From: a virus
Direction: 5' to 3' (one strand)
Virus record (IMG/VR): IMGVR_UViG_3300007609_001476
Location: 1 to 21,582 of that record
Length of the DNA: 21,582 bases
Shown here: positions 1 to 20,576 of the stretch, one piece after another
Numbering within the stretch: position 1 is the first letter of the stretch
Layout: each line of letters starts with the position of its first letter
Notes under the pieces: model-generated
Database searches by the model: none
What the model saw: the letters and a program-made list of their open reading frames with translations, nothing else
What the model was told of the DNA's origin: nothing
Translations under genes and position numbers: made by a program

Positions 1-126
1 GTAGAACCAAATACCCGCTCTAGTGTCCTTAAGATAGGCCAATGCAACGGCACCGATTATAGAACCACCAATGGCGGTCCAAATCCAAAGGGTATCGCTG
101 AACATTCTGTCTATCATTTCTAACAT
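1..126 (-). CDS. Small membrane protein, N-terminal part only (holin candidate)
   Basis: This frame opens with ATG at 126-124 and runs off the left edge, so only the first 42 residues are seen. They begin MLEMIDRMFSDTLWIWTAIG and continue through a hydrophobic stretch at about residues 13-32 (WIWTAIGGSIIGAVALAY), then a charged KDTR turn and the start of a second hydrophobic run. One clear membrane segment is visible and a second may follow. It is the last visible gene of a lysis module (endolysin, i-spanin, o-spanin), where a holin would be expected, so a holin role is inferred from size, topology and position only. A strong Shine-Dalgarno (AGGAGGG) lies in a hairpin that includes the start codon, and a late promoter motif lies just upstream. 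Another small phage membrane protein is equally possible. Confidence 0.7.
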   Translation of the reverse strand, partial: MLEMIDRMFSDTLWIWTAIGGSIIGAVALAYLKDTRAGIWFY

Positions 127-144
127 AGTAGCCCTCCTACTATG
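124..144 (-). promoter_or_regulatory. Hairpin holding the Shine-Dalgarno and start codon of the holin candidate
   Basis: A perfect 8-bp inverted repeat, CATAGTAG / CTACTATG, encloses a 5-nt loop. In the minus-strand mRNA the loop is GAGGG, the core of the Shine-Dalgarno, and the last three bases of the 3' arm are the AUG start codon. The folded form should block ribosome access. By analogy with the T4 lysozyme gene e, this could silence read-through transcripts while leaving late transcripts translatable. Confidence 0.7.
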
Positions 145-146
145 TT

Positions 147-154
147 TATTTATT
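147..154 (-). promoter_or_regulatory. T4-type late promoter motif (AATAAATA)
   Basis: On the minus strand the sequence is AATAAATA, one mismatch from the T4 late consensus TATAAATA. With T4 geometry, transcription would start near 141, inside the 5' arm of the following hairpin. The element overlaps the stop codon of the o-spanin gene. The motif is seen directly; the start point is inferred. Confidence 0.55.
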
Positions 155-3490: not shown

Positions 3491-3526
3491 AGTAAGGGGA
3501 CATTGTCCCCTTACTATTATTTTATT
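3491..3526 (+). terminator. Rho-independent terminator, phoH / ferredoxin convergent junction
   Basis: An 11-bp perfect stem AGTAAGGGGAC / GTCCCCTTACT with an ATT loop starts 4 nt after the phoH stop and is followed by the T-rich ATTATTTTATT. It should end phoH transcription. The T-rich part overlaps the last codons of the ferredoxin gene. From the minus strand the same hairpin is followed by a weaker T tract, so it may act in both directions. Confidence 0.9.
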
Positions 3527-5802: not shown

Positions 5803-6018
5803 TTATTTGGTTTTGTCTTCACGAACAGAACGTGGGTTCTTATCATAATAATCTTTTAATACTTCTTCCCTGGTTCGCACAATTTCTCCACCTTGTCCTA
5901 GTTCGTCCCCGCGTGCATTTACACGCATATTTCCCACGGCAGGTTGTAATTCGTTTTGTAGTGTTAATTTTTCCATATCAACTTCTTTGCCTCTAAGGCT
6001 TCTATAAGTTTTACCCAT
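5803..6018 (-). CDS. Hypothetical protein, 71 aa
   Basis: A small basic/acidic protein that starts MGKTYRSLRGKEVDMEKL and contains NARGDELGQGGEIVRTREEVL. Function unknown; the pattern seems familiar from T4-like cyanophage-type genomes. The start at 6018 is chosen over an in-frame ATG at 6042 because AAGGAG (6025-6030) lies 6 nt before it. The longer form would have no ribosome binding site and would read through the end of the upstream gene. It overlaps that gene by 8 nt. The second half is mostly polar and may be disordered. Confidence 0.72.
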   Translation of the reverse strand: MGKTYRSLRGKEVDMEKLTLQNELQPAVGNMRVNARGDELGQGGEIVRTREEVLKDYYDKNPRSVREDKTK

Positions 6019-6514
6019 TAATTTCTCCTTTAAAAAATTCATCTAACGGTAAATTATATTTAATGCTGTCCACTTTATGAACCCCTAGTAAGTATAACAC
6101 ATAGCTGGCAACACTGGATCCACGACCAACTCCCCAAACAACATTATTTTCACGTAGTGTATCTACTATATATTTCATACAACGTAAGACATCTAAAAAA
6201 TCATGCTTTTGATAAAGTTGAATCTCACTTTTTACTCTTTGTACTTCTTCGTCAGTCTTACACAAATTAAGGATGTGCTTTTCTATATCCATTGACATAT
6301 ACTCAGTCGGGACATACCAGTTTTTATGATCAATCACTTCTTTCGGTATAGGATAATTTAAGAATTCTTCGTTAATTCTTTTCTTGTACTGATCCAAATC
6401 GGCATCTGTTTTACATAGATCTAAATAATCAATACCGTGTAATTTTATGCCTTCTAATATATCGTCAAGCGTATTAGTCGATGTTGATAAGTTGGTCGAG
6501 ATCGTCGTCGTCAT
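6011..6514 (-). CDS. DNA polymerase III alpha palm-like mini-protein
   Basis: A 167-aa protein whose C-terminal 60 residues resemble the start of the palm domain of bacterial DnaE: a helix ending in WGVGRGSS (about 127-134), then a hydrophobic helix and KVDSIKYNLPLDEFF. DnaE has GPGRGS, a hydrophobic helix and DPIxYxLLFERF in the same order. It stops where DnaE continues to its catalytic PDxDxDF, so it lacks the active-site aspartates visible in polymerases and is unlikely to make DNA alone. LCKTDx(E/D) is present twice (about 33-39 and 84-90), a hint of internal duplication. The start overlaps the previous gene by 41 nt and has only a weak Shine-Dalgarno. Possible roles are a host-replisome interactor or a non-catalytic structural relative. 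Confidence 0.75.
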   Translation of the reverse strand: MTTTISTNLSTSTNTLDDILEGIKLHGIDYLDLCKTDADLDQYKKRINEEFLNYPIPKEVIDHKNWYVPTEYMSMDIEKHILNLCKTDEEVQRVKSEIQLYQKHDFLDVLRCMKYIVDTLRENNVVWGVGRGSSVASYVLYLLGVHKVDSIKYNLPLDEFFKGEING

Positions 6515-20124: not shown

Positions 20125-20412
20125 ATGTTTATAAAGAAAAGATTAGAAACAAATACTTTCACCAGGGTAAGTAAACTAGGAAAAGAACATCAGTACTCAA
20201 GAACAAGAACTGTTTATAATTTTAAATGTGATAATTGTGGCACCGAGTTTGAAAGAACTCCAAAGAAAATGCACCACAAAAGAACAAGCAATAATTATTT
20301 TCATGTTTGTTCTAATTGTGATGCAAAACGTTTTGCACAAAAGAAAGGTATCGAGCAAAAACAGATATGGGATATGCCTGCAGGATTAGATTTACCTGTA
20401 AGCAAATTTTAA
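20125..20412 (+). CDS. Zinc-ribbon protein, 95 aa
   Basis: A small basic protein with two CxxC knuckles, Cys35-Cys38 (CDNC) and Cys62-Cys65 (CSNC), separated by a Lys/His-rich linker (KKMHHKR). This fits a four-cysteine zinc ribbon or treble-clef finger that could bind nucleic acid. The N-terminus is rich in Lys, Arg and Thr. No Shine-Dalgarno is visible before the ATG, and an in-frame stop lies 5 codons upstream, so no earlier start exists; translation may be leaderless or weak. The last 4 nt overlap the end of a small minus-strand gene. An HNH-type nuclease is not supported, since no HNH residues are seen. Confidence 0.75.
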   Translation: MFIKKRLETNTFTRVSKLGKEHQYSRTRTVYNFKCDNCGTEFERTPKKMHHKRTSNNYFHVCSNCDAKRFAQKKGIEQKQIWDMPAGLDLPVSKF

Positions 20413-20576
20413 TTTTCTTTTTTGCAGATTGTCCATATACCGTAAGCAACCGCAATACCACCTGCTATTTTTGCTAAATTTGCAGCGAAAATAGCTAATA
20501 ATCCCATTACTATTAGTCCAGCACCGTCCCAAGAAGTTCTTTCTTTAATACGTGATTTAATCCAATTTAGACCCAT
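20409..20576 (-). CDS. Small membrane protein, 55 aa
   Basis: A short gene with ATG at 20576-20574 and a TAA stop at 20411-20409. It encodes a basic amphipathic start (MGLNWIKSRIKERTSWD), a hydrophobic stretch of about 32 residues (about 19-50: GLIVMGLLAIFAANLAKIAG, then GIAVAYGIWTI) and a KKEN tail. AGGAG lies 6 nt before the ATG and a late motif AATAAATA lies upstream. It could be one long or two short membrane helices. Holin, antiholin or another membrane protein are possible; the function is unknown. Confidence 0.75.
   Translation of the reverse strand: MGLNWIKSRIKERTSWDGAGLIVMGLLAIFAANLAKIAGGIAVAYGIWTICKKEN

Follow-up and report, generated by a model that had tools for sequence, protein, structure and literature searches.

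The gene for a small membrane protein at the end of the lysis cassette in a viral DNA fragment of 21,582 nucleotides (hereafter the window) is preceded by a hairpin that pairs its start codon, and a T4-type late promoter motif adjoins the 5' arm of this hairpin. We consider it likely that this is a cis-acting anti-start hairpin with a late promoter built into its 5' edge, such that the membrane protein would be made only from its own late promoter and not from read-through RNA. Judged by comparison of sequences across relatives, the regulatory element is genuine and conserved; its kind is known, but the gene family that carries it is new.

On the minus strand, positions 154 to 122 read AATAAATA AACATAGTAG GAGGG CTACTATGTT, followed by AG. 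The hairpin (122-146) adjoins the AATAAATA box (154-147) and has a perfect 10-bp stem in which 146-137 pair with 131-122; sequence and folding define its 5' arm AACATAGTAG (137-146), its loop GAGGG (132-136) and its 3' arm CTACTATGTT (122-131), which holds the start codon AUG (126-124). The Shine-Dalgarno sequence AGGAGG (138-133) lies half in the stem and half in the loop (138-137 plus the GAGGG loop), and a CAU at 144-142 in the 5' arm is the complement of the start codon. The first-pass annotation had described a perfect 8-bp hairpin with the Shine-Dalgarno core in the loop and the AUG in the stem; the perfect stem, the placement of both elements and the other coordinates are correct, but the stem is 10 bp long by sequence. 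When both arms are present the RNA folds with -12.3 kcal/mol (z -2.4; 4 of 200 shuffles as good), compared with -5.0 kcal/mol for RNA starting at 141, and in read-through RNA of the window the pairing of the AUG is 1.00, amounting to sequestration of the Shine-Dalgarno sequence and AUG of the T4 e / I-TevI type. In the window, two perfect inverted repeats have arms of 10 bp or more and loops of 3-8 nt, compared with 0.2 expected: this ribosome-binding-site hairpin and a terminator at 3491-3515. An Rfam search returned only a chance snoRNA match, located elsewhere than the hairpin.

The box at 147-154 on the minus strand, which overlaps the o-spanin stop codon (150-152), is by its motif a credible T4-type late promoter -10 element. 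The window has five copies of ATAAATA, none of them off the minus (coding) strand, and four are 16-28 nt upstream of gene starts, bearing out the late motif that had been read at this position. Across related contigs, fetched whole or in large part, ATAAATA preceded an ORF in 17/25, 14/26, 6/8, 9/26, 30/67 and 10/19 cases, compared with roughly 2-14% for most permuted motifs. A gp55-like late sigma (phrog_234) is present in 9 of 18 related contigs carrying the cassette or the gene and in 9 of the 13 related contigs of at least 98 kb; the window, a 21.6-kb fragment, is without a gp55-like sigma gene. The T4 late TATA box spans -13 to -6, with A at -13 in nine listed T4 sites (PMC2988020), and the late promoter motif of cyanophage S-PM2 is NATAAATA (PMC2984593). 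The likeness to these promoters consists of the box sequence, in which an A at -13 is allowed, and of the gp55-like sigma in the large relatives; unlike the T4 and S-PM2 promoters, those of the present phages are candidates identified by their motif. By T4 geometry, the late transcription start can fairly be placed at about 141 on the minus strand, 6 nt past the last A of the box, in agreement with a box at -13 to -6. RNA starting at this predicted +1 would be missing positions 142-146 of the 5' arm and with them the CAU (144-142), consistent with the earlier expectation that late RNA lacks the three nucleotides that pair with the AUG.

Removal of the outer part of the 5' arm is predicted to loosen the start site of the window rather than to free it completely. 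The opening cost falls from 12.6 kcal/mol in read-through RNA to 5.5 in RNA starting exactly at 141, which retains a 5-bp stem and exceeds the family median of 2.2 kcal/mol, and RNA starting at 139 or later is open (2.5 at 139). Thus, of the claim that read-through RNA is blocked and late RNA open, folding of both RNAs upheld the drop in opening cost but not full opening at 141.

To place this site among its relatives, protein searches yielded about 270 copies of the membrane-protein gene, which after removal of duplicates gave 80 leaders with ATAAATA within 65 nt upstream and 78 without; 35 promoter-bearing leaders found by protein were kept apart from those selected by DNA pattern. In the read-through RNA of these 35 protein-found leaders, the median AUG pairing is 1.00 and the median opening cost 9.2 kcal/mol, and the latter drops to 2.2 kcal/mol for RNA starting 6 nt after the box. 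The corresponding values for 73 other ATAAATA-preceded genes at the same loci are an AUG pairing of 0.48 and an opening cost of 4.2 in read-through and 2.6 in late RNA; the difference between the two sets (p about 1e-10) treats related sequences as independent and is to be read as an effect size. The lack of structure in these other ATAAATA genes rules out that late leaders have such a hairpin in general. Copies of the membrane-protein gene without ATAAATA are also mostly without structure (median opening 4.7 versus 8.9 with the promoter, p 2e-6), and most of them sit directly after another gene.

The anti-start CAU begins 2 nt after the box in 49 leaders and 0 nt after it in 13, and therefore falls between the box and the predicted +1. 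Leaders without a CAU often have the AUG paired with sequence in the box or upstream (e.g., L357, L405). Overall, the AUG pairs with a partner that precedes the predicted +1 in 22 of 35 protein-found leaders, in 37 of 41 pattern-selected leaders and in 10 of 73 controls; the CAU overlaps +1 in 5 of the 35 protein-found leaders and would thus be only partly removed there. An initial narrow DNA pattern matched one contig. When IMG/VR (2.9 million viral contigs) was scanned, irrespective of gene, for the box followed by CATA, GAGGG and TATG, 65 distinct sites were identified, 44 of which belong to the membrane-protein gene family, compared with 4 of 38 sites in a permuted control scan (TACA); hairpin counts from this gene-blind scan are biased at CATA and TATG by the search pattern itself.

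Among about 80 distinct promoter-bearing relatives, the hairpin is usually retained through compensating changes. In 46 distinct arm pairs, 7 of the 10 base pairs are altered on both sides, the three invariant pairs being those of the AUG itself, and neither the paired fraction (81.5%) nor the covariation score was reached in any of 500 shuffles. Sliding the partner arm lowered pairing to 20-65%, and exchanging 3' arms between phages destroyed it, with none of 2000 exchanges reaching the observed mean pair number. These compensation counts include leaders from the DNA pattern scan, and the protein-found subset alone gave an equal result. For example, the arms of the window (AACATAGTAG/CTACTATGTT) and those of contig L006 (TACATAACAA/TTGTTATGTT), which encodes a 93% identical protein also after an o-spanin, differ by three double-compensated pairs. 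On the protein tree, which is built on 88 residues and weakly supported, the second inner pair switches type at least 15 times; in a tree-based independent-pairs test, the supported branches yielded too small a number of pairs to be significant alone, nearly all of them in the expected direction. Pairing of the AUG is retained despite wide variation in the sequence and length of the stem and in the length of the loop. The proposal of the first-pass annotation that related phages keep the hairpin by compensating changes is therefore sustained, and its converse, a stem broken without compensation, applies to a minority only: L099, L176, L402, L404 and L418 have no stable hairpin despite a promoter, and L066, L076 and L417 bear the promoter but are differently organised.

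The genes of the window are almost all on the minus strand and form a T4-like set encoding a clamp loader, virion structural proteins and the lysis cassette; a 2281-aa tail protein has an N-terminus of the T4 gp9/10 type. The cassette consists of an M15 endolysin, an i-spanin, an o-spanin and the small membrane protein at the window's end. Profile matches identified the endolysin (peptidase M15_3, phrog_894; 890-1354), the i-spanin (Rz-like; 391-897) and the o-spanin (Rz1-like lipoprotein, phrog_812; 150-572), all on the minus strand. A further late promoter motif on this strand (2637-2644) precedes two structural genes (2087-2620 and 1354-2103) as well as the lysis genes. The terminator at 3491-3515, a strong bidirectional terminator-like hairpin recovered by both the terminator scan and the inverted-repeat count, is located between convergent PhoH (plus strand) and ferredoxin-like (minus strand) genes and separates the clamp-loader and ferredoxin genes from the lysis operon. 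Since it divides the clamp-loader genes from the operon, early read-through is unlikely; with this terminator upstream and a late promoter at 2643 heading the operon, the silenced RNA is probably the late polycistronic RNA from that promoter. The earlier statement that read-through RNA is blocked therefore fits late polycistronic RNA and is doubtful for early RNA. Elsewhere in the window, a 167-aa protein (6011-6514, minus strand) matches bacterial DNA polymerase III alpha (PF07733) over a small segment only. In the relative L002 (contig 3300026097_000980), whose o-spanin is 92% identical, the place of the membrane-protein gene behind the late box is taken by a gene that has an EF-hand-like motif.

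The window contains the 5' part of the membrane-protein gene (1-126, minus strand), an ORF for a single-TM protein of ~93 aa that is cut at the window end (base 1); contig L001 has an identical site and the full 93-aa ORF. Members of the family are about 88-120 aa long, with one hydrophobic helix (13-32) and a second, amphipathic helix, and the C-terminal helix likely forms a coiled coil. The gene adjoins the spanins and the M15 endolysin, and 40 of the 80 promoter-bearing copies directly follow the o-spanin. For the membrane protein, searches of Pfam and PHROGs gave no match above cut-off, tblastn against 50,697 phage records gave nothing solid, and Foldseek against viral structures gave no match. 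Residues 3-29 show weak similarity to the XhlA haemolysin family (PF10779) in 16 of 52 members, with a score of 20.6 that falls short of the family cut-off of 34.7. The gene had been put forward as a putative holin: a membrane protein of the lysis cassette it is, but a match to a known holin sequence or fold (PHROG, Pfam, Foldseek) did not emerge, and its position together with the one TM helix suggests a holin with about an even chance. A 55-aa single-TM protein is encoded at 20409-20576 (minus strand) behind its own late motif (20604-20598), and in other phages (e.g., L063, L049, L177) its relatives immediately precede the membrane-protein gene, so that there is more than one holin candidate; we regard this protein as a candidate second holin or antiholin.

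We propose that, in RNA reading in from upstream, the 5' arm would pair with the AUG region and the Shine-Dalgarno sequence would be presented only within the 10-bp stem-loop, and we infer that the membrane-protein gene at the end of the cassette would be poorly translated from such RNA. In RNA from its own late promoter (AATAAATA, +1 at about 141), the outer half of the 5' arm and the CAU would be gone and the start site would be loosened. The read-through RNA would most likely be the late polycistronic RNA of the lysis operon (2643), with a leak of earlier RNA as the second source, and the device would then tie the membrane protein to its own promoter rather than mark early versus late. The protein may be a holin or other lysis protein, whose early or excess synthesis would presumably be harmful.

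The position of the o-spanin stop codon, which overlaps the promoter and is 3 nt before the hairpin, raises the alternative of translational coupling, whereby the hairpin blocks independent initiation and o-spanin ribosomes melt the 5' arm and re-initiate, fixing the ratio of membrane protein to spanin on the polycistronic RNA. Because the stop is so close, ribosomes ending o-spanin could melt the hairpin, and an upstream stop is found within 10 nt of the box end in 38 of 67 hairpin leaders. However, 24 of the 67 have their nearest upstream stop at a distance of over 25 nt or lack an ORF end within 400 nt, which rules out pure coupling as a general account. Coupling also offers no reason for the late promoter inside the hairpin or for the missing hairpins in promoter-less copies that overlap the preceding stop, and we consider it unlikely.

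Hairpins or initiation regions are the sites of action of some T4 repressors (PMC3014915), and the leaders are only 20-30 nt long, so the hairpin might instead influence RNA stability or be bound by a RegA- or gp43-like translational repressor of the phage, and overlap the promoter only because the leader is short. This reading is quite improbable given that stem and loop vary with AUG pairing kept, leaving no fixed recognition sequence beyond the Shine-Dalgarno. It is highly improbable that the inverted repeat is a plus-strand intrinsic terminator or a chance match. A terminator scan does report it, with a T-rich tail, for the plus strand, but only 3 of the 10 stem pairs are G-C, no gene on the plus strand ends at this site, and the relatives retain pairing specifically around the AUG; this AUG-centred covariation, the absence of a plus-strand gene end and the rarity of such repeats in the whole window rule out the terminator reading, and the rarity also argues against chance. 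An anti-start hairpin whose 5' edge carries the late promoter thus remains our preferred reading.

Similar arrangements were observed at other genes. A SNase-like nuclease gene (PF00565) in L262, L249 and L290 (G004, G013) has a late box and a CATATTAA..TTAATATG anti-start hairpin. A 96-aa protein with no family assigned (MSRPKP...), found in L512 (G010), L543 (G013) and G014, is encoded behind a late box with TATACGTA..TACGTATA hairpins around its start. Other small TM proteins are encoded behind late boxes with (bulged) anti-start hairpins in L251, L261, L340 and L477. Tentatively, this group of marine T4-like phages could be viewed as using promoter-embedded anti-start hairpins repeatedly, as a lock that restricts several unrelated genes with products harmful out of time (the membrane protein, the SNase-like nuclease, the 96-aa SRPKP protein and other small TM proteins) to expression from their own promoter; such hairpins would uncouple the amount of lysis membrane protein from the rest of the lysis operon, even late in infection. 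The signature of late box, anti-start, Shine-Dalgarno and AUG would pick out genes that the phage must not express early. If the membrane protein is a holin, lysis timing would depend on an RNA switch set by promoter choice.

The arrangement is that of T4 gene e and I-TevI on a new gene family. In T4 gene e, which encodes lysozyme, an inhibitory hairpin forms in early RNA and late promoters are located inside its 5' arm; a review predicts similar e leaders in close T4 relatives (PMC3014915). In the identical calculation, the T4 e, 49 and I-TevII leaders show an equivalent drop in opening cost, that of e going from 17.1 to 4.5 or from 15.2 to 2.1 compared with 12.6 to 5.5 in the window, so both the literature and this profile agree with the first-pass reading that regulation of this type is known for gene e. 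Common to both are a late TATA box in the 5' arm, sequestration of the Shine-Dalgarno sequence and AUG in the longer RNA, late RNA without part of the arm, and a lysis gene as the apparent target. In contrast to T4 e, the gene of the window family encodes a small single-TM protein rather than lysozyme and belongs to another phage group, the 5' arm of the window abuts the box with the anti-start CAU just upstream of +1, and covariation could be counted over about 46 distinct stems. The leaders of T4 I-TevI, I-TevII, I-TevIII, segB, soc and 49 and of Aeh1 mobE likewise have a late promoter positioned such that the inhibitory arm is missing from late RNA (PMC2988022, PMC3014915); those are mostly homing endonuclease and recombination genes, whereas here a lysis-cassette membrane protein and a SNase-like nuclease are concerned. 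The device of T4 gene e thus appears not to be peculiar to enteric phages, since an abundant, mostly uncultured phage group has retained it on another gene of the lysis cassette and rebuilt it there through compensating mutations.
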